The notes beneath the pieces are model-generated. The model was not told where the DNA came from and did not search any database. It was given only the letters and a program-made list of their open reading frames with translations. DNA of 64,000 nt from Elusimicrobiaceae bacterium. GTDB taxonomy: Bacteria; Elusimicrobiota; Elusimicrobia; Elusimicrobiales; Elusimicrobiaceae. The stretch spans positions 62,001 through 126,000 of the forward strand of contig JAFXGO010000008.1 of NCBI GenBank assembly GCA_017520185.1. The letters run 5' to 3'. How positions within the stretch are numbered: the stretch's first letter is position 1; each line of letters begins with the position of its first letter. Position numbers and translations under genes: made by a program. Shown here in pieces: positions 17,159 through 63,473 of the stretch.

Positions 17159-17851
17159 ATGAAAAAATTACCTTCTGATTCTGCTTCTTTTCAAAAAACA
17201 TCGGTATTATTCTTTGAAAAAATAGGACCGAGCGGAATTTCCGTAAAAAAATTAGAAGCCTTGTTTAAGTATCTTAATCAAAGGGGTTTTCATTCTCTTT
17301 TACCATCAGAACTAGACACATCTTCTTTAACAAAATCTTTTTTACTCGTTTTTGCCAACGGATATCGAAGTTTTTTTACGCAAGTATATCCCTTGCTAAA
17401 GAAGCATGGTTTAAAAGCGGCAGTAGGCTTGCCGGTGGGGCTTATCGGACAATATGACGCCTGGCAACCGGCCGATGAAGGGGCATGGCAAGATTTATTA
17501 ACCAAAGAAGACCTAATCCAACTAAAAAAAGATAAAAATATCGCTTTTATTTCGCAAGGATTAGACAATGGTTCCTCCTCTAAACTCGATGAAAAAAAGG
17601 CCATTTGGCAATTAGAAGAAAGCAAATTCCGCCTGCACAATTTATATAGCATTTCTACAGAGACTTTACTCTTTACCAAAGATTTTTTACAAAAACCTGC
17701 CGTATTGAGCAAAGCCCAACAAGAGTATAACCTGTTGCTGGTAAAGAGTAAATCCGGCCGAATATCCTCCCCCAGCCATGCTTTTTTGCGTATAATCTCT
17801 GTGAGCAACAAAACGTGGCTTTGGCCTCTTTTTTATAAAATGAAGTCTTAA
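17159..17851 (+). CDS. Degenerate NodB-fold (polysaccharide deacetylase-like) protein
   Basis: This 230-residue protein has no signal peptide. Residues 60-98 align with the start of NodB-type deacetylases: SFLLVFANGYRSF, then VYPLLKKHGLKAAVGLPVGLIG, matching the usual TFDDGY...PLLKKYGLKATFFLP...IG pattern. The metal/catalytic Asp pair of TFDDGY is replaced by Ala66-Asn67, and the HxxxH motif is not evident, so it is probably not an active deacetylase. A TAAAAT hexamer ends eight bases before the ATG. A bidirectional terminator follows. The fold assignment is moderate. Confidence 0.6.
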   Translation: MKKLPSDSASFQKTSVLFFEKIGPSGISVKKLEALFKYLNQRGFHSLLPSELDTSSLTKSFLLVFANGYRSFFTQVYPLLKKHGLKAAVGLPVGLIGQYDAWQPADEGAWQDLLTKEDLIQLKKDKNIAFISQGLDNGSSSKLDEKKAIWQLEESKFRLHNLYSISTETLLFTKDFLQKPAVLSKAQQEYNLLLVKSKSGRISSPSHAFLRIISVSNKTWLWPLFYKMKS

Positions 17852-22932: not shown

Positions 22933-24315
22933 ATGATTATTAATGATGAGAAACTGCAACGAACCTTAGAAAAAGCCAAGTCCCATACGGACGCTGAGGT
23001 GACGGAAATTTTAACCAAAGCCAAACAACTCAAAGGGTTAACCCTTGAAGAAGCGGCGGTCCTTTTAAACATTACCGACGAAAACCTGCTACAAGATTTA
23101 TTTCATACGGCAAAATACGTCAAAGAAGAGATTTACGGCAATCGCATTGTGTTGTTTGCCCCTCTTTATATTTCTAACATTTGTACCAATGAATGTGTAT
23201 ATTGCGCCTTTCGCAAAAGCAACACCTCTTTAAAACGCCACGCCAGCACTGCAGCAGAAATTCACCAAGAAGTGACCGCCCTTTTACAACAGGGGCACAA
23301 ACGCATTTTGATGGTGGCCGGGGAAGCCTATCCCGGCGGCGGTTTGCAATACGTATATGACAGTATTAAAGCCATTTACGATACCCGCTGGAACGGACAA
23401 AATATTCGTCGTGTCAATGTAAATATAGCTCCGCTGGTACAAGAAGAATTTGAAGAACTCAAAAAATGCAATATCGGCACGTATCAACTTTTCCAAGAAA
23501 CCTACCATAAACCAACTTATGAAAAGTTGCATTTGGAAGGAGCCAAAAAAGATTATCAGTTCCGCCTAGATGCGATGGACCGCGCCCTTAAAGCCGGCAT
23601 TAATGATGTAGGCATCGGGCCTTTGCTTGGCTTGTATGACTACAAGTATGAAATCCTGGCCACGTTGGAACATTCTTTTTACTTGGATCGAACATATGGC
23701 GTAGGCCCGCATACTATATCCATTCCGCGCATTGAGCCGGCGGAAGGGTCTGACTTTAGTTTGCATCCGCCTTACCAATTAAGCGATACCGACTTTAAAA
23801 AAGTGGTAGCCGTCTTACGCTTGGCAGTGCCTTATACCGGAATCATTTTAAGCACACGTGAAAGTGCCCAAATGCGTACCGAGTGTATGGAACTAGGCGT
23901 ATCTCAAATTTCTGCCGCCAGCCGTGTAAACCCCGGTGGATATTCTTATGACAAGGACAACGGAAGCCAGTTCACCTTAACCGATGAGCGCACTTTGGCT
24001 GAAGTAATTGATGCCTTGGCAGATGCTAAACATATGCCGTCTTTCTGTACAGGTTGCTACCGCTTAGGACGCGTGGGCAAAGATTTTATGGATTTAGCCA
24101 AACCGGGCTTAATCAAAAAACATTGTCTGCCCAATGCCATGTTCACCTTTGCCGAGTATTTGGAAGATTTTGCTCCGGCAGCATTGAAAGAAAAAGGCTA
24201 TGCTCTTATTGAAAAGACCTCCAAAGAAAATTTTGCCGAAGGGGGTGCTATCCGAAAAATGATTGAGGAAAACTTAACCAAAATCAAAAACGGAAAGCGG
24301 GATTTGTATTTTTAA
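22933..24315 (+). CDS. hydG: [FeFe]-hydrogenase H-cluster radical SAM maturase HydG
   Basis: HydG cleaves tyrosine to supply CO and cyanide ligands to the hydrogenase H-cluster. The 460-residue protein has the radical SAM motif Cys84-X3-Cys88-X2-Cys91 (CTNECVYC) and the C-terminal auxiliary cluster motif Cys372-X2-Cys375-X22-Cys398 that separates HydG from ThiH. Regions GIGPLLGLYDYKYE and SAASRVNPGGY are typical. HydE, HydF and the hydrogenase are not in the window. No ribosome site is seen; TATGAT lies six bases before the ATG. It implies hydrogen production by [FeFe]-hydrogenase, consistent with a fermenter. Confidence 0.95.
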   Translation: MIINDEKLQRTLEKAKSHTDAEVTEILTKAKQLKGLTLEEAAVLLNITDENLLQDLFHTAKYVKEEIYGNRIVLFAPLYISNICTNECVYCAFRKSNTSLKRHASTAAEIHQEVTALLQQGHKRILMVAGEAYPGGGLQYVYDSIKAIYDTRWNGQNIRRVNVNIAPLVQEEFEELKKCNIGTYQLFQETYHKPTYEKLHLEGAKKDYQFRLDAMDRALKAGINDVGIGPLLGLYDYKYEILATLEHSFYLDRTYGVGPHTISIPRIEPAEGSDFSLHPPYQLSDTDFKKVVAVLRLAVPYTGIILSTRESAQMRTECMELGVSQISAASRVNPGGYSYDKDNGSQFTLTDERTLAEVIDALADAKHMPSFCTGCYRLGRVGKDFMDLAKPGLIKKHCLPNAMFTFAEYLEDFAPAALKEKGYALIEKTSKENFAEGGAIRKMIEENLTKIKNGKRDLYF

Positions 24316-24329
24316 CGCAAATCAAAAGA

Positions 24330-24368
24330 TGAAAATACCCGTCTATATGTAGGCGGGTATTTTTTTGT
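24330..24368 (+). terminator. Terminator after hydG
   Basis: AATACCCGTC (24334-24343) pairs with GGCGGGTATT (24352-24361) around an eight-base loop, followed by T6. Confidence 0.85.
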
Positions 24369-24400
24369 GAAACTTCTTTTATTTTTATCTCTGTTTTTTG

Positions 24401-24528
24401 TAAAATATATGTAAGGACGGATTTTTATTTTTGTACTTTATTGACGCAAAAAACCGCGTCAACCCTACAGGGCCCTATGGTATCGGTCTGCCGACAGCCG
24501 GGTGGTACAGAGGTAAAAATCCGTTCTT
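24401..24528 (+). promoter_or_regulatory. Riboswitch-like structured leader upstream of the YfcC-type carrier gene
   Basis: TAAAAT (24401-24406) would start transcription at about 24413, exactly where a 15-pair closing helix begins: AAGGACGGATTTTTA (24413-24427) pairs with TAAAAATCCGTTCTT (24514-24528) with one G-U. It encloses about 86 bases with a GACGC/GCGTC hairpin, a CCCTACAGGG stretch, CGG-TCTG-CCG, and AGCCGGGTGGTACAG. The ribosome site GGGAGG of the carrier gene follows 20 bases later, so control of translation is possible. I could not match it to a known class with confidence. Confidence 0.6.
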
Positions 24529-24567
24529 ATTTTGCAAACAAATCCATTGGGAGGAAGAAAAAAGAAA

Positions 24568-26034
24568 ATGAAGTTGTTGAAGTTTAAATTACCACAATTC
24601 AACACGTTAAGTATTATTTTTGCCATTATCTTATTGGTGACGGCAATGACGTGGATTGTACCCAGCGGTGCATATGACCGCGTACTCAGCGATGGCCGAG
24701 AAGTTGTAGTGGCCGGCACCTATCATGCCGTAGAAGCCAACCCACAAGGTATTTTTGACGTACTAAAAGCCCCTATTACCGGTTTTGAAAATACCGCTTT
24801 GGTTATTGCATTTTTGCTCATTATCGGCGGTGTATTGGCCGTTGTGGAAAAAACCGGCGCCATTACCGCAGGTATCAAAGAAGCCAGCAATTTCTTTGGC
24901 AAAAACCCTCAATTTAAATTCCTTTTTATCCCGATGGGTATTATCATTTTTTCGTTATGTGGTGCCACATTTGGCATGTGTGAAGAAACTTTGATTTTTA
25001 TTCCCATTTTGATTCCTTTAGCTCTTTCTTTGGGTTATGACTCTGCTATCGGCACCGCTATCCCGTTTGTAGGTGCAGGTGTCGGCTTTGCAGCGGCTTT
25101 TACAAACCCTTTTACCGTAGGTATTGCTCAAGGCATCGCCCAAGTACCGCTTTATTCTGGTTTGGGATATCGTTTAATTGTATGGTCCATTTGTACGACA
25201 GTTGTGATTACATTCTTAATGCTCTACGCACGCAAAATCACCAAAGATCCCACGAAAAGTTTGACCTATGAATATGATCAAGCCAAACGTCAAGAATTGG
25301 GCATGAATAAAGAAAGTCACAAAATTACCACCCGTCAAAAACTAGTATTACTTGCTTTTGGGCTGGGGATGGTCGGGCTGGTGTGTGGTGTACTCAAACC
25401 CCAACTCTGTGACTTTATTAAAGGCTTCACCGGCATTGATTTAATGACTCTTTTAAACCTTGAAAACAGCGGTTGGTATATTACCGAAATTGCCGCCTTA
25501 TTCTTGGGAATAGGCTTTGTATCGGCTATTTTAGGCGGATTAAACATGAGCCAATTTACCGACAGTTTCTTTGACGGTGTACGCGGCATGGCCTCTATCG
25601 CCATTACCTTATGTTTTGCTCAAGCCATCGTGCTGATTGCTCAAAACGGTCAGATTTTAGATACTCTTTTAAACTTCATGTCTAAGGGAATTTCCAAACT
25701 GCACCCGATTTGTGCCTCTTGGGCTGCCATGATGTTGCAGACGGTAATTGACTTCTTTATTCCGTCCGGCTCCAGCAAAGCAGTATTGACTATGCCTATT
25801 TTGGCTCCGTTGGCAGATTTGATTGGCATTACCCGCCAAACGATGGTACTTTCATTTCAATTAGGCGGAAGTTGGTTAAATATGATTTTCCCCACTGACC
25901 CCGTCACCATTGCGGCCATCGGTTTTGCCAATATTGCCTTTTCCAAGTGGCTTAGATGGTTGGCTCCGTTGTTAATTTTGATGTATCTGTTGTCTTTTGC
26001 CGCTTTGGTTCCGCCGTATTTCATGAATTGGTAA
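24568..26034 (+). CDS. YfcC-family carrier (basic amino acid/C4-dicarboxylate type), copy 1
   Basis: I start it at 24568, 13 bases after GGGAGG; 488 residues. It is a polytopic membrane protein with about 12 hydrophobic segments, beginning FNTLSIIFAIILLVTAMTWIVPSGAY, a typical YfcC/ArcD-like N-terminus, with the conserved SLCGATFGMCEETLIFIPILI and FTNPFTVGIAQ and, near the end, FFIPSGSSKAVLTMPILAP. Members exchange amino acids or take up short acids; the substrate here is unknown. A riboswitch-like leader precedes it and a similar carrier gene follows. Confidence 0.85.
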   Translation: MKLLKFKLPQFNTLSIIFAIILLVTAMTWIVPSGAYDRVLSDGREVVVAGTYHAVEANPQGIFDVLKAPITGFENTALVIAFLLIIGGVLAVVEKTGAITAGIKEASNFFGKNPQFKFLFIPMGIIIFSLCGATFGMCEETLIFIPILIPLALSLGYDSAIGTAIPFVGAGVGFAAAFTNPFTVGIAQGIAQVPLYSGLGYRLIVWSICTTVVITFLMLYARKITKDPTKSLTYEYDQAKRQELGMNKESHKITTRQKLVLLAFGLGMVGLVCGVLKPQLCDFIKGFTGIDLMTLLNLENSGWYITEIAALFLGIGFVSAILGGLNMSQFTDSFFDGVRGMASIAITLCFAQAIVLIAQNGQILDTLLNFMSKGISKLHPICASWAAMMLQTVIDFFIPSGSSKAVLTMPILAPLADLIGITRQTMVLSFQLGGSWLNMIFPTDPVTIAAIGFANIAFSKWLRWLAPLLILMYLLSFAALVPPYFMNW

Positions 26035-26115: not shown

Positions 26116-27519
26116 ATGAAAAAATTCTTTTCCAAATTCTGTAATACCTATTTTTTAATCTTTTGCATTATGTTGGCCGTGACGGCTTTGACTTGGGTAA
26201 TTCCGGCCGGCGAATATCAACGCATAGAACAAGACGGACGCACGATTGCCGTTGCCGGCTCCTATCATACGGTTGAGCCAACCCCTCAAGGATTAGGCCA
26301 AGCCTTACAAGCCCCCATTCAAGGGTTTCATCAATGCGCCGAGATTATCGCTTTTATTTTAGTTGTCGGTGCTTTATTTACGGTAATAGAACGTACGGGA
26401 GCCGTCAGCACCGTAGTTAAAAAAGTAAGTTTTTACTTTGCCCAACACCCCAAGCACCGTATCTTTTTTATCCCTACTTGTATGTTTTTATTCTCTCTGT
26501 GTGGGGCCGTATTTGGCATGGAAGAAGAAACACTGATTTTTATTCCCATTTTTATTCCGCTGGCACTTTCTTTGGGATATGATACTTTGGTGGGTATGGC
26601 CATTCCGTTTATCGGGGCATTTACAGGATTCTCTTCTGCTTTTGTCAATCCGTTTACCGTAGGCATTGCACAAACCATTGCCCAATTGCCCATGTACTCC
26701 GGTTGGCAATATCGCGTGTTGGTATGGTTTATTTTTACGAGCGTTGTGGCGGCCTTTTTTACTTGGTATGGAGAAAAGATACGCAAACACCCCAGCAAAA
26801 GTTTAACCTGCAAAAAGGACATCGTTAGACGTGCAGAACTCAATATTGTTAATGATGTGGTGGTGGATGAATCTTTCCGTCTGACAAACGCACACAAATT
26901 GGTACTTCTTTCCTTTGTAAGCGGTATGGGCATTTTGTTCTACGGCATTATTAAATATCAGTGGTACATGACAGAAATTGCCGCCGTATTTTTGGGTGTC
27001 ACGATTGCAGTGGCTTACTTTGGCAAATTGAAGTTGGACCAAACGACCGATGCCATTTTGGCCGGAGCACAAAGCATGATAGGGGTATGTATTTTGATGG
27101 CTTTGGCACGCTCTATCGTCATTGTGGCTACGCAAGGACACATTTTAGATACGGTATTGCACGGCATGACTCAAAGTTTGGGTACTTTACACCCCATTTT
27201 AGCCTCTCAGGCAATGTTCTTTGTGCAAACTATATTGAACTTTTTTATCGCTTCCGGTTCAGGACAAGCAGTGCTGACAATGCCTATTATGATTCCGTTG
27301 GGAGATTTGGTGCATGTTTCCCGTCAAACTGTTATTTTGGCATACCAATTCGGAGAAGGCTGGGGCAATCCTATTATCCCCACAGCTCCTGTCACGATGG
27401 GGGCTTTGGCCTTAGCGGGTATTTCTTACGGATCTTGGGTAAAATGGTTTATGAAGTTAGAGATCATTTTAATTGTATTATCCTTACTACTGCTGATACC
27501 GGCATATTATATTTGGTAA
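26116..27519 (+). CDS. YfcC-family carrier (basic amino acid/C4-dicarboxylate type), copy 2
   Basis: This 467-residue carrier is clearly related to the preceding one: it shares VTALTWVIPAGEY, LFSLCGAVFGMEEETLIFIP, VNPFTVGIAQTIAQ(L)PMYSGW and FFIASGSGQAVLTMPI. It is about 20 residues shorter, mostly because the central cytoplasmic region is shorter. The ribosome site is AAAGAGGAAAAC. The tandem pair probably arose by duplication and may differ in substrate. A strong terminator follows. Confidence 0.85.
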   Translation: MKKFFSKFCNTYFLIFCIMLAVTALTWVIPAGEYQRIEQDGRTIAVAGSYHTVEPTPQGLGQALQAPIQGFHQCAEIIAFILVVGALFTVIERTGAVSTVVKKVSFYFAQHPKHRIFFIPTCMFLFSLCGAVFGMEEETLIFIPIFIPLALSLGYDTLVGMAIPFIGAFTGFSSAFVNPFTVGIAQTIAQLPMYSGWQYRVLVWFIFTSVVAAFFTWYGEKIRKHPSKSLTCKKDIVRRAELNIVNDVVVDESFRLTNAHKLVLLSFVSGMGILFYGIIKYQWYMTEIAAVFLGVTIAVAYFGKLKLDQTTDAILAGAQSMIGVCILMALARSIVIVATQGHILDTVLHGMTQSLGTLHPILASQAMFFVQTILNFFIASGSGQAVLTMPIMIPLGDLVHVSRQTVILAYQFGEGWGNPIIPTAPVTMGALALAGISYGSWVKWFMKLEIILIVLSLLLLIPAYYIW

Positions 27520-27558: not shown

Positions 27559-28974
27559 ATGCTCAATAAATTAAAAATAATTTCTTATCTTTCCACCACT
27601 GATTGGTGTGTGTTCGGTTTAGTAATGGCGCTTACTTTTGCCGTAGCCGTCTATGGCCATTACCGTCAAAAAAAACCACAAAATACCGCTTTGGATTATT
27701 TATTAATGGGCCGGCAACTTACCTTGCCTTTGTTTGTAGCCACCTTAGTAGCCACTTGGTATGGCGGTATTTTTGGAGTCAATGAAATCACCTTTAACTA
27801 TGGAATTTACAATTTTGTGACACAAGGGTTTTTCTGGTATGTGGCTTATATTATATTTGCTTTCTTTATTGCAGAAAAAGTGGCCAAGTATCAATCTGTC
27901 ACTTTGCCGGATTTGGCAGAAAATATGTTCGGCCCTAAAGCAGGAAAAGTGGCAGCCTTGTTTACTTTTTTCTATATCACGCCGGTAGCCTACGTGTTGA
28001 GTTTGGGAATTTTTTTAAATATGATTTTTGGCATTGGCGTATTAAACGGCATGATTATCGGCACTGTTTTTACGTGTATTTATACCGCTTGGGGAGGATT
28101 TAAAGCGGTTGTTTTTTCAGATTTGGTCCAATTTTTTGTTATGTGCAGTGCCGTATTATTGGTAGTTCTTTTTTCCTTGCAAGATTTTGGAGGAATTTCC
28201 TTTTTGAAAACCCATCTTCCCCCCTCTCACTTTAGTTTGACGGGCGGAAACGGTATCTTAAATACGCTGATTTGGGGATTTATTGCTTTATCTACTTTAA
28301 TAGACCCTAGTTTTTACCAGCGTTGTTTTGCGGCCAAAAGCCCGCAAATCGTAAAAAAAGGGGTATTGATTTCCACTCTCATTTGGTTTTGTTTTGATAT
28401 ATGTACAACTTTAGGCTCTTTATATGCTCGTGCCTTACTGCCGACGGCAGAGCCGGCGGAAGCGTATTTCTTTTATGCGATACAACTATTGCCAACAGGA
28501 TTAAAAGGCTTTTTTGTAGCGGGCATTTTGGCCATCATTCTCTCCACGCTTAATTCTTTTTTATTTATTGCTTCCAATACATTAAGTTATGATTTGCTAA
28601 AACACCGGTTCAAAAATATTATTTTTTCCAACCGTATTGCTCTTTTTGTTGTAGGCGGTTTAGCAATTGCAATGGCCCAACTTCTAGATGGAAGTTTTAA
28701 AGAAATTTGGATTACCTTAGGCTCTTATTTTTCAGCCTGTTTACTGGTGCCTATTTTGGTAGGATATATATATCCAAAGCGCATTAGTGACCGTTTATTT
28801 GTCTGCAGTGCTCTTTCCAGCGCGGCTGTTATGACGGCATGGAAAATACTTCCACTAAGTGGATTTTGGGCACAAATAGATGGGTTCTATATTGGGGTAA
28901 GTACCAGCATTGTAATTTTGCTTTTAAACAAAACAAGGAAAAACAAAAATGTCCAAAGCACTATTGATTTGTAA
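27559..28974 (+). CDS. Sodium/solute symporter (SSS family), possible thiamine or precursor transporter
   Basis: This 471-residue protein has about 13 hydrophobic segments and SSS-family patterns: DYLLMGRQLTLPLFVATLVATWYGG at the N-terminus and ALSTLIDPSFYQRCFAA in the centre. Its 3' end overlaps thiN by 26 bases, so the two are translated together. Because ThiN makes thiamine diphosphate from thiamine, the transporter may import thiamine; SSS proteins linked to thiamine genes have been proposed as such before. That role is inference from context. No TPP riboswitch is visible upstream. The start has AGGA and lies right after the previous terminator. Confidence 0.82.
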   Translation: MLNKLKIISYLSTTDWCVFGLVMALTFAVAVYGHYRQKKPQNTALDYLLMGRQLTLPLFVATLVATWYGGIFGVNEITFNYGIYNFVTQGFFWYVAYIIFAFFIAEKVAKYQSVTLPDLAENMFGPKAGKVAALFTFFYITPVAYVLSLGIFLNMIFGIGVLNGMIIGTVFTCIYTAWGGFKAVVFSDLVQFFVMCSAVLLVVLFSLQDFGGISFLKTHLPPSHFSLTGGNGILNTLIWGFIALSTLIDPSFYQRCFAAKSPQIVKKGVLISTLIWFCFDICTTLGSLYARALLPTAEPAEAYFFYAIQLLPTGLKGFFVAGILAIILSTLNSFLFIASNTLSYDLLKHRFKNIIFSNRIALFVVGGLAIAMAQLLDGSFKEIWITLGSYFSACLLVPILVGYIYPKRISDRLFVCSALSSAAVMTAWKILPLSGFWAQIDGFYIGVSTSIVILLLNKTRKNKNVQSTIDL

Positions 28975-29563
28975 TGGAGAAAAACCGGGCTGTTGGTTGA
29001 AAAAGTTGGCCCAAGAGGCGGACTTTGTATTGGCTGCTGACGGTGGATCTAATTCGGCACTATCGGCAGGCATCACCCCCGATGTAGTGATTGGAGATTT
29101 GGACTCCGCTTCCCCAAAAACAAAAAATGTCTTTCAAGATATTCCATTTATTCATGTCAAACGCCAAGATAATACAGACTTGGAAAAAGCGTTGGATTGG
29201 TTGGTGTTGCAACAATTTGACGAATGTGTCATCGTAGGCGCAACGGGCGGCAGGTTGGATTTTACAGTGGGTAATTTTCTATCGGTTTATCCCTACCTCA
29301 GCAAAATAAAAATTATATTTAGAGGAAAGAATTGGAGCATTTTCCCCTTAACACAGTCTTTTCGTTTTTCTGCCAATAAAGGAGCTCGCATGAGCATTAT
29401 TCCTCTTACAAATTGCCAAAATCTTACCTTAAAAGGTGTAAAATACCGCTTAAACGGGGTAGATTGGCAGTTGGGGCAGACGGGGCTTTCTAACGTAATT
29501 ACCGCTAAAAGAACAGAAGTCTTGTTTGACAAAGGATATCTGTTGCTTTATATAGAAGATTGA
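28949..29563 (+). CDS. thiN: Thiamine diphosphokinase (ThiN)
   Basis: ThiN transfers pyrophosphate from ATP to thiamine. The 204-residue protein has LAADGGSN, the metal-binding IGDLDS, the substrate loop DNTDLEKAL and VGATGGRLD(F), all family signatures, with a beta-sandwich C-terminal domain. The ribosome site AAGGA lies inside the overlapping symporter gene. No thiamine synthesis genes lie nearby, which fits salvage. Confidence 0.92.
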   Translation: MSKALLICNGEKPGCWLKKLAQEADFVLAADGGSNSALSAGITPDVVIGDLDSASPKTKNVFQDIPFIHVKRQDNTDLEKALDWLVLQQFDECVIVGATGGRLDFTVGNFLSVYPYLSKIKIIFRGKNWSIFPLTQSFRFSANKGARMSIIPLTNCQNLTLKGVKYRLNGVDWQLGQTGLSNVITAKRTEVLFDKGYLLLYIED

Positions 29564-60500: not shown

Positions 60501-63420
60501 GCGCCAAATGATAGATTCCGGCGTCAGTGTGTATCATTTGCCCATAGCGGCCGATTGTTTGGCCGGAGATTTACATTTACAATGGTTCGGTGCTAGTGAT
60601 TACAAACTCTATGGCCAAAGAACAGTTATCCCCGTTTATCCGAAGGAAAAAGAACTTTCCTTATCCATAGAAGTACCGGACCGTGTAAAACCGGCTGAAA
60701 AAAATGCTTGGAAAATATCCGTTAAAAATGCCGCCGGCAAACCGGTATCGGCGCAGGTTTCCGCCAAAGTGTACGACAAATCCTTAGATTACTATGCCAA
60801 AAACAGTTCCGTCAATTTGAGCGGTTTGTGGAAAGAAATTTTAAGCGGATCTTTAGCCTTTGCAGAAAGCGCATACTCGGTTTATCCGCGCACATTAGAT
60901 CGTGTAGAAACGCAAGATAGGAAGTATCAGCCTTATCCGCAAATGCCTAGCATTAATTTAAATTCTATGGCTCTGCATTACGGAATTACCAAAATGCGTA
61001 CTCTTAACACGTTAGCCGCCCCAAAAGCTGCTTTTGCACGCGGGGCAGATATGGCCGTAGCAGAAGAAGCTGCCGTACAAGAAACTGCCCTTGCCAAACA
61101 GGCTGATAGCGCCCAAACAAGTGCTGCATCTTCCCCTGAGCAGAGTGCCCCTCGCACAGATTTTTCAGAAACGGCTTACTTTAATGCCATGCTCTCAGCC
61201 CCTCAAGGAACGGCCAAAATGCAGTTTACCATGCCACAAAGTTTGACCGCGTGGAACATCTTGGCTTTGGCCTTTACCAAAAAAGATGACTATGGCACTT
61301 TTACAGCACAAACCATTACGAAAAAAGATGTAATGGTCCGTCTGTCTCTGCCTCGTTTTTGGAGAGAAAAAGATAAGAGCCAACTTGTCGTACAAATTAC
61401 CAACACTACCGCTAAAAAAAGAGAGGGAGTGCTAAGCCTAGACTTGCGCTTAGACGGGCAAGAAGTCTCCTCCTCTTTTGGCATTAAGTCACAAAGCCAA
61501 AAAGTCAGTATCCCTGCCAATGAAACGCTCTCTTTGCATTGGCCTGTCGATATCCCGCAAGGGGTAGGAGTGCTGACGGCCACCGCCTCTTTGCAAGCAG
61601 GTCAAGACAGTGATGCAGAGCAACGTCAAATCCCCATTTTACCGGCGGTAGAACGCTTGGCAGAAAGTACAACGGTCGCTTTAGAAAATGGCACTGCTTC
61701 TTTATCTTTGCAAAACTTGCTGGTGTCTGATGATACGCGCAAAGTGTCCACCGTTAATCTACGCATTGATCCGGGCCTTTTGCTCAGCGTTTTTAATGCT
61801 ATGCCTCAGTTGCTCAAGCCCTATCACCAAGATATCATGAGTTTAACCGATAGGTACGTTCCTTTATCAGTGGTGCATGGGCTTTACCAGAAATACCCCC
61901 TGCTTGAGCAAGCCGTAGCCAAACTGCCCAAGCGAAATACGGCCACTCCGGCCTGGCATGACAATCAAGATCCGGCCCGTTTGATGCTCTTGGAAGAAAG
62001 CCCTTGGCTGCGTCAGGCGCAGGGCGGAGCGGATAAAGCGCAATTTCTGACAGATTTATTCAATGCAAAAATGGTTGAAAAAACACGTCAGGAAACGGAA
62101 AAAGAATTGAGCAAATATCAAACTTCTTCCGGCGGATACAGTTGGTTAGCAGGCGGAAATGCCAGCCAATACCTTACCATGAATGTCCTGTCCGGCTTTG
62201 CGCAAGTTTTGCGTTATGGAGGGAAAATCCCCCAGAAAAGCGCTCAAAAAGCATTGGCCTGGTTGGCCCCGCGCATTGAAGAAGATTTGCAGAAAAATCC
62301 CCCCTCTTTTCATGGGGTGGCCCATGCATTGTATGCGGCCTATGTCTATACCGCATTTCCGCAAGAGTGGAAGGAAGTTTCCTCCGCACCTGTACGCAAA
62401 TGGTTAGATTATGCAGACAAGCATAGCGCTTTTATGACTCCTCTGGGGCAAACGTATGCGGCGGCAGCCTATTTCCGCTTGCAAGAGGATACCAAAGCGC
62501 AAAATTATATGGGTCTGGTGCTTTCCACCATGAAAACCGACCCTGTGACGGGTGCTTATTTTGCGCCGGAAGCGCAAAGTTGGCTATGGTACAACGATAC
62601 CATTGCTACGCAAGCGGTCACCTTGCGCACTTTATTAGAACTCCGTCCCGAAGCCACCGAGCAAGCCAGTGCTATGGTTAAGTGGTTGTTGTTTAACCGC
62701 AAAGCCCAAGCATGGAACTCCACTACACAAACGGCAGAAGCCATCTATGCTTTGCTGGAATATATGACCAGAAACGGCATTTTGGACGACCCTGCCGAAT
62801 ATACCATCACATGGGGTGACGAACACAAAAAAATTGCTTTTGAACCGTTTGATTGGACGGAACAACTGGTTTGGACACAGCAAGCCTCTGACGTAAACCC
62901 TCAGTATTATTCCGCACAAGTGACCAAACGCGCCGGTTTAACGGGCTTTGCCACCTTAGATGCTATATACACAACGCAAAAAGCCTTACCTTCGCCAAAA
63001 GGGGTGCTGAATGTATCGCGCAGATATTTACTCAAATATACGGAAAACGGAATAGAAAAAGTGCGTGAAATTTTGCCCGAAGAAGAAATACCCGTCGGGG
63101 CGGAAATAGAGGTACGTTTGACTTTACAAACCGCCTCTGCCTTTGACTTTGTAGTATTAACAGACCCCAAACCGGCCGGTTTTGAAAATACCGAATTATT
63201 AAGCGGTTGGAGTTGGGACATCTTGCCCACGTACCGCGAGTATAGAGATGCCTCCACCCACTTCTTTTTAGACCGCGTACCGGCGGGTGAATATAGTTTC
63301 TCCTACACATTGCGTCCCACTCTGCAGGGAGAATATCACATCTTGCCCGCACAAGTACAGTCTATGTACGCACCGGAATTTTCCGCCCATACAGACGGTG
63401 ACAAAATCTACATTAAATAA
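57562..63420 (+). CDS. Alpha-2-macroglobulin family protein without thioester motif
   Basis: This 1952-residue exported protein has a signal peptide (MKKTILLLGFFFPCFLPAQ), an N-terminal helical TPR-like region (about 20-330), MG domains (YRPGQKVQLAVYGFK, VEEYKRPEYEVNLHKQAK), an A2M domain with PQSLTAWNILALAFTK, a helical thioester-type domain and a C-terminal receptor-like domain. Where bacterial A2Ms carry PYGCxEQxxSRYLP, residues 1420-1434 read PYHQDIMSLTDRYVP, so Cys and Gln of the thioester are lost. It may trap proteases without covalent linkage or have another envelope role. A2M genes often neighbour pbpC, and a pbpC-like gene lies downstream on the other strand. Confidence 0.9.
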   Translation: MKKTILLLGFFFPCFLPAQDLQKAEEFYQNNNFAQSLSLYQQAIPSLSSTALYQAQLRVIASQYMLGQYLNAAQSAFSFPLPENNLWKARFLLYRIQTAQRVKNQYRAILPDTSEDNASLAQLSQAQWNEKITKTFEQLWDLKSTLLNAPIEKETFILNIQDTDTTAIATLFDFVVLTWSDFLLNQPTQEPLPADIVLQESAAEPTLLKENTTKVLSLYQQASLLAGKNRNNARIIWQAKRLVLPFNYSYLFDFKDEKAQRLQTASLLEDLAGHKKEKTSWWNKCKEFLQSKPVYGQAYAAHEAAQLYQQAQSFQQALELCRWSQENLGDNYYSSYACAELVNDITKPVLNLDFVPFSQNPSDITVSFTARNIDAVYARIYRTDEAELQQLNGKNSYPPWNYLKDTNQKLIQSFVQKTPFKTHIEKISYPYPYAFKESKMTLPSLQESGFYVVLVSHNPDFNSKQAPIEAFVLNQTDLALFASGAIDAPVSNAWNLADFSADTFRLYTLNLKTGEPVADAKITYFLQNKNNLHQATSNENGLLTVKQTISPQKSSHFQIAPKAQKDGNTAFLSGWFNFYYRPAQPYKFYTETDLALYRPGQKVQLAVYGFKNTARGFQTLDKDSAVQIIVRDPNYQEVYKEQLSTNDFGTAQTSFTLPETGLLGNYHVNTSFKIKNKEYSSIHSFKVEEYKRPEYEVNLHKQAKIEFGKKAEITGHAQYYFGTPLQDAIVSYKVTQRSFQPRFCWWCSPAVSSEKQIAQGETKTDEKGDFIFSFLAPQQQKTPTSFLVELSVRDASGRTIDTTHTYYTSEKPFFFAVKFKKGFYDAQTPTVLADIALTDISESAVKGKVLVEIYELENTLPELSQDNTNSNNSLQAWYGKNKEVRKVKSQTISLQENYAPIHIPALPEGIYKLKLQHKQADTQELIFLVAQQHSQLALPEVAIVQEDSYSPNTQARILIGAQKLKGKKRVEITQGNFLLSRQMIDSGVSVYHLPIAADCLAGDLHLQWFGASDYKLYGQRTVIPVYPKEKELSLSIEVPDRVKPAEKNAWKISVKNAAGKPVSAQVSAKVYDKSLDYYAKNSSVNLSGLWKEILSGSLAFAESAYSVYPRTLDRVETQDRKYQPYPQMPSINLNSMALHYGITKMRTLNTLAAPKAAFARGADMAVAEEAAVQETALAKQADSAQTSAASSPEQSAPRTDFSETAYFNAMLSAPQGTAKMQFTMPQSLTAWNILALAFTKKDDYGTFTAQTITKKDVMVRLSLPRFWREKDKSQLVVQITNTTAKKREGVLSLDLRLDGQEVSSSFGIKSQSQKVSIPANETLSLHWPVDIPQGVGVLTATASLQAGQDSDAEQRQIPILPAVERLAESTTVALENGTASLSLQNLLVSDDTRKVSTVNLRIDPGLLLSVFNAMPQLLKPYHQDIMSLTDRYVPLSVVHGLYQKYPLLEQAVAKLPKRNTATPAWHDNQDPARLMLLEESPWLRQAQGGADKAQFLTDLFNAKMVEKTRQETEKELSKYQTSSGGYSWLAGGNASQYLTMNVLSGFAQVLRYGGKIPQKSAQKALAWLAPRIEEDLQKNPPSFHGVAHALYAAYVYTAFPQEWKEVSSAPVRKWLDYADKHSAFMTPLGQTYAAAAYFRLQEDTKAQNYMGLVLSTMKTDPVTGAYFAPEAQSWLWYNDTIATQAVTLRTLLELRPEATEQASAMVKWLLFNRKAQAWNSTTQTAEAIYALLEYMTRNGILDDPAEYTITWGDEHKKIAFEPFDWTEQLVWTQQASDVNPQYYSAQVTKRAGLTGFATLDAIYTTQKALPSPKGVLNVSRRYLLKYTENGIEKVREILPEEEIPVGAEIEVRLTLQTASAFDFVVLTDPKPAGFENTELLSGWSWDILPTYREYRDASTHFFLDRVPAGEYSFSYTLRPTLQGEYHILPAQVQSMYAPEFSAHTDGDKIYIK

Positions 63421-63423
63421 AGA

Positions 63424-63463
63424 TAAAAAAACCCGAGTTCTTTACAGAACTCGGGTTTTTAAA
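63424..63463. terminator. Bidirectional terminator after the macroglobulin gene
   Basis: AACCCGAGTTC pairs with GAACTCGGGTT (63430-63440, 63447-63457), with A6 and T5 flanks. Confidence 0.9.
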
Positions 63464-63473
63464 TACAGATATT

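Follow-up and report, generated by a model that had tools for sequence, protein, structure and literature searches.

A conserved structured leader RNA, candidate for a riboswitch class outside Rfam, before a carrier–thiamine pyrophosphokinase operon in Elusimicrobiaceae

The window analyzed here is a stretch of 64,000 nucleotides from an Elusimicrobiaceae bacterium (contig JAFXGO010000008.1 of assembly GCA_017520185.1, positions 62,001 to 126,000). On its forward strand it contains an operon that begins with genes for DcuC-family carriers and ends with the gene for thiamine pyrophosphokinase (TPK). A structured leader RNA is present in front of the first gene, at the place (24401–24528) where a first-pass annotation made from the sequence alone had proposed one. 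The features of the leader and the operon, with the evidence for each, are as follows.

24401–24406, + strand: −10-like element TAAAAT of the operon promoter (sequence; conservation in relatives)
24413–24437, + strand: 5′ strand of helix P1, AAGGACGGAUUUUUAUUUUUGUACU, its inner part invariant (fold; alignment A2; pair counts)
24441–24462, + strand: P2 hairpin, variable in length and covarying (fold; alignment; pair counts)
24463–24472, + strand: invariant CCCUACAGGG, drawn as the three-pair hairpin P3 (fold; alignment; no covariation)
24473–24502, + strand: P4 arm, with CCC/GGG, GGU/GCC and an outer stem that includes alignment columns 75–83 (fold; alignment; tree)
24504–24528, + strand: 3′ strand of P1, GGUACAGAGGUAAAAAUCCGUUCUU (fold; alignment; pair counts)
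24525–24536, + strand: U-tract directly past P1, terminator-like (U content in 18 leaders)
24549–24554, + strand: Shine-Dalgarno sequence GGGAGG (sequence)
24568–26034, + strand: YfcC1, DcuC-family carrier, first gene of the operon (PF03606, 329 bits; NF008611, 314.7 bits, below its cut-off of 500)
26116–27519, + strand: YfcC2, second DcuC-family carrier, absent in some relatives (PF03606)
27559–28974, + strand: SSS-family sodium:solute symporter, probable importer of thiamine or a vitamer (PF00474; homologue behind a TPP riboswitch in the related genome G068)
28949–29563, + strand: TPK (TIGR01378, 148.3 bits against a cut-off of 76.4)

The gene just upstream is hydG, which encodes an [FeFe]-hydrogenase maturase (22933–24366, + strand; TIGR03955, 507 bits). 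It ends in a clear terminator of its own at about 24336–24367 (ACCCGTCTATATGTAGGCGGGT, then a T-run), and the leader therefore belongs to the operon that follows. The element TAAAAT ends 6 to 8 bases short of P1 and so puts the transcription start at or beside the base with which this helix begins, in agreement with the start predicted by the first-pass annotation. A TANAAT sequence is kept at the same spot in both leader-bearing and leaderless relatives, the latter having a similar promoter followed by a short 5′ region. A generic promoter scan made no call on the element at 24401–24406, which indicates that the −35 element is poor or absent. The ribosome-binding site had been placed about 20 bases past the helix, where GGGAGG is indeed found, and the ATG of yfcC1 at 24568 is about 40 bases past P1. 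Further downstream, the TPK gene overlaps the symporter gene by 26 bases. The order yfcC1-(yfcC2)-SSS-TPK is kept through the genus, with TPK last in nearly every relative.

The leader RNA (24413–24536, + strand) folds with a minimum free energy of −53.2 kcal/mol, compared with −28.7 ± 3.3 kcal/mol for dinucleotide shuffles (z = −7.45; none of 200 shuffles was as good), and the minimum free energy structure is identical to the centroid structure. The RNA of about 115 nt forms a multi-helix junction closed by P1. The closing helix had been described as 15 pairs around about 86 bases; the helix itself is borne out, while its size is not, as 25 pairs are predicted in the window sequence (24413–24437 with 24504–24528), enclosing 66 bases, and 22 pairs are present in the consensus of 17 sequences. 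The several short helices anticipated inside it appear in the fold as P2, a possible P3 and P4.

Relatives of the first gene were confirmed by tblastn, and leaders were sought by whole-genome DNA and covariance searches. Another 17 Elusimicrobiaceae genomes have the leader in front of the orthologous gene, intact in 16 of them and decayed in one (L022). The 17 intact leaders, with L022 left out, were aligned (alignment A2), and 97.4% of the cells in paired columns form standard pairs, compared with 42–52% when the partner strand is slid. Changes on both sides were found in eight pairs (31 cells), a count that none of 500 shuffles reached. These compensatory changes, which the first-pass annotation had called for in homologous leaders, lie in P1, P2, and P4. 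The P4 pair 75–83 is C-G, G-C or U-A depending on the species and has changed at least four times on the gene tree, and the P1 pair 8–113, either A-U or G-C, has changed at least twice. P2 varies in both sequence and length while its hairpin is kept. P3 and the inner P4 pairs show no covariation, so that the pairing of P3 is unproven.

The linkers and inner strands, unlike P2, are frozen. Hardly any variation is seen in the junction sequence CCCUACAGGGCCCUAUGGUAUC ... AGCCGGGUGGUACAGAGGUAAA, with CCCUACAGGGCCCUAUGGUAUC altered once, in L021; UUUUUAUUUUUGUACUU is likewise frozen apart from a single base at its edge that differs in L068. The segment AGCCGGGTGGTACAG, which had been noticed as conserved-looking in the single sequence, is invariant in all 17 intact leaders. 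An ATG at 24477 opens a reading frame, and a coding core was considered and ruled out: the distances between the invariant blocks differ by one or two bases across species, which breaks the frame, and the conservation of the core is thus not that of a reading frame. As would be sought in a riboswitch, the element is a conserved, structured 5′ leader with compensatory changes.

In 341 genomes of the phylum, a covariance model built from the leader (R1) identified 18 bearers. All of these belong to one genus and have a single locus each, so that the sample is shallow; the minus-strand matches of R1 at the bearer loci are a palindromic shadow. The leader is a single copy in its own 1.42-Mb genome. 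A permissive search with model R2 in 40 genomes gave no convincing extra copy, and its weak matches (E of 0.06 to 5) were taken as chance. One weak R2 match in the window, at 63417–63470, is a simple, strong and bidirectional-looking terminator hairpin (63420–63470; AAAAACCCGAGTTC TTTACA GAACTCGGGTTTTT). The window also holds an inverted repeat at 17666–17755 (TTTACTCTTTACCA ... TGGTAAAGAGTAAA, spanning about 90 bases). Exact core patterns were absent from viral contigs, no copy of the leader was found in plasmids, and Microviridae gave only a 32-base chance match. The closest named records are Elusimicrobiaceae metagenome-assembled genomes from animal guts (Elusimicrobium/Candidatus Avelusimicrobium). 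In a nucleotide tree of the first gene, the leader-bearers form one clade with support of 100/100, which indicates a single gain of the leader (or a single loss outside the clade). Its core has stayed frozen while the gene diverged by about 0.5 substitutions per site, and leaderless congeners have the same operon without it.

P1 runs straight into a U-tract. The 12 bases past P1 have a mean U content of 75% in all 18 leaders, compared with 16% over the rest of the leader up to the start codon, and the core therefore looks embedded in the stem of an intrinsic terminator. A terminator scanner made no call on P1 because it permits only short loops. Forms of the RNA in which P1 is missing or broken are about 10 to 23 kcal/mol worse. 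With P1 so stable, a ligand-gated equilibrium is hard to see, and any switch would need to be kinetic. A search for a conserved antiterminator found none. Three wobble (U-G) pairs in P1 never turn into Watson-Crick pairs, and a candidate alternative helix, ACCCU:AGAGGU, would explain why they are locked; however, 833 of 1,000 shuffles reached as low an energy, and this helix was rejected and is not used as evidence.

The leader is always found before yfcC1-(yfcC2)-SSS-TPK and thus keeps to one metabolic theme, although all leaders share one target operon and the evidence from gene context therefore counts once. Several observations connect this operon with thiamine. First, SSS-TPK or YfcC-(SSS)-TPK adjoin in three other genera (g2, g5, and g6), with the symporters sharing 51–66% identity. 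Second, in one of these relatives, G068 (g2), a canonical TPP riboswitch (76.8 bits) lies directly before SSS-TPK and is followed by a terminator (GGGAAACGC...GCGTTTCCC with a T-run). TPP riboswitches are sporadic in the family (L111:1501–1607, minus strand; L110; L112), occurring before SSS-TPK in G068, a thiG-like gene in G077 and thiM-like/thiE-like genes in G080. In the order as a whole, most stand before apparent thiC genes, so that G068 is the single direct example before homologues of SSS-TPK. The link to TPP thus consists of this one direct case and the linkage to TPK. Third, searches of 66 congeners yielded neither a TPP riboswitch nor a ThiE above the cut-off, and no ThiT was found among 26 relatives searched, 16 of them in the genus of the window. 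The genus therefore appears from its gene content to be unable to make thiamine and would need regulated import, for which the operon is the best candidate. The position of the leader is the one at which one would look for a TPP riboswitch.

The best explanation, to which we would give an even chance, is that the leader is a riboswitch of a class outside Rfam, most likely for TPP or thiamine, which controls an operon for thiamine uptake and phosphorylation and has its core in a terminator stem. Transcription would start at the first P1 base or directly beside it, and the junction of P2, P3, and P4, together with the invariant linkers, would form the sensing core. P1 would close this core and, by running into the U-tract, act as an intrinsic-terminator-like stem. 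When TPP (or thiamine) is plentiful, its binding would stabilize the P1-closed form and transcription would terminate; when the ligand is scarce, RNA polymerase would read through and the importers and TPK would be made. A more far-reaching proposal can be put forward tentatively: the leader may be a second natural class of TPP- or thiamine-sensing RNA that is not related to the TPP riboswitch. Such a class would have had a single origin within Elusimicrobiaceae, would stand where a relative has a TPP riboswitch and would carry a large aptamer in its own terminator stem.

A somewhat unlikely alternative is that the leader acts as a structured protein-binding site, or as an element of mRNA stability or processing, instead of a metabolite sensor. 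In its favor, P1 is very stable and partly locked in sequence. The decayed leader (L022:3353–3468, genome G044) has kept the promoter, P1 and the U-tract while the conserved core has been replaced, and its P1 has AGAGA where the others have AGAGG. For the rejected helix ACCCU:AGAGGU, the loss of the core alongside this change is a suggestive but single case; L022 is either a decayed switch or a sign that the P1 stem has a role by itself. However, near-invariant single-stranded junction nucleotides next to freely varying stems are the pattern of an aptamer, and the presence of the leader only once per genome also argues against this alternative.

It is less probable still that the RNA is a new riboswitch class whose ligand is what the DcuC/YfcC carrier transports, either a basic amino acid or an organic acid; a link of this kind had been suggested by the first-pass annotation. 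The first gene of the operon is DcuC/YfcC-like, and in Clostridioides difficile a lysine riboswitch precedes yfcC (PMC11477304). The conserved partner, however, is TPK, which ends the operon across genera and in G077 directly follows YfcC1 on its contig; furthermore, the homologous SSS-TPK pair in G068 is under a TPP riboswitch, and the lysine-riboswitch model gave no score on the leader. The assignment to amino or organic acids is therefore not supported, and the thiamine-related reading is preferred.

We consider it very improbable that the leader is a degenerate or distant form of a known riboswitch (TPP, HMP-PP/thiS, T-box or c-di-GMP-I), although its thiamine context and its short look-alike boxes would agree with this. 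A search of the whole window with Rfam 15 found a single tRNA only and no family on the leader, as the first-pass annotation had surmised. With permissive filters (E ≤ 10, 24300–24620), only chance matches were obtained, mostly at the hydG terminator (about 24330–24370), none of which convincingly overlaps the leader, and the TPP, T-box, c-di-GMP-I and lysine models gave no score in this interval. Likewise, no match reached the gathering threshold of 54.3 bits of the TPP riboswitch (RF00059) in the window or in genome G000, and the covariance models of the T-box (RF00230) and c-di-GMP-I (RF01051) did not match the leader. The c-di-GMP-I-like box that had been noted, GACGCAAA, lies inside the variable P2 hairpin and is for that reason without meaning. 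The resemblance to a T-box did not hold up either: GGGUGGUAC in the leader is a string that also occurs in the T-box antiterminator, and a T-box leader has a stem I with a specifier and an ACC in a bulge, neither of which is present in the leader of about 115 nt. The usual signatures of TPP riboswitches and T-boxes are absent from it. Least credible of all is a mobile or repeated palindromic element that landed in the 5′ region by chance, for despite the near-palindromic outline and the restriction to one clade, a mobile repeat is ruled out, as far as genome copies show, by one copy per genome in all 18 bearers, always at the same position, with a single gain and a frozen core.

If the leader binds TPP or thiamine, it would show a second way of sensing a ligand that is among the oldest known for riboswitches. 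It would also represent a young class of riboswitch with a single gain inside one genus, where leaderless sister species allow comparison, and it would be the second case, and a larger one, of an aptamer lying within a terminator. Furthermore, carriers of the DcuC/YfcC type and the SSS family would be given a role in taking up vitamin B1, in those uncultured gut Elusimicrobia that apparently cannot make thiamine.

Compared to known systems, the leader shares some features with each and differs in others. The TPP riboswitch (RF00059) occupies the same place before the homologous SSS-TPK pair in G068, but its core and order of helices are unlike those of the leader, on which RF00059 gives no score. 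In C. difficile, a leader RNA also precedes a YfcC-family gene, but it is a different RNA, a lysine riboswitch, and the partner gene encodes an amidohydrolase where TPK is found here (PMC11477304). The HMP-PP riboswitch (thiS motif) is an experimentally proven precedent; its aptamer lies almost wholly in the terminator stem, which a U-run follows, and it switches during transcription (PMC6478431). Like the leader, it is associated with thiamine-related genes and has conserved loop nucleotides, and the core of the leader likewise looks embedded in a terminator stem. However, the thiS motif is a simple hairpin/pseudoknot of about 54 nt (PMC6478431), whereas the leader is a multi-helix junction of about 115 nt with a closing stem of 22 to 25 bp. 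The leader does not have the hairpin-pseudoknot core of thiS and is set apart from it by architecture, with no Rfam family scoring on it. The two also differ in what they control, thiS acting on HET-P synthesis (PMC6478431) and the leader standing before an operon for uptake and TPK.
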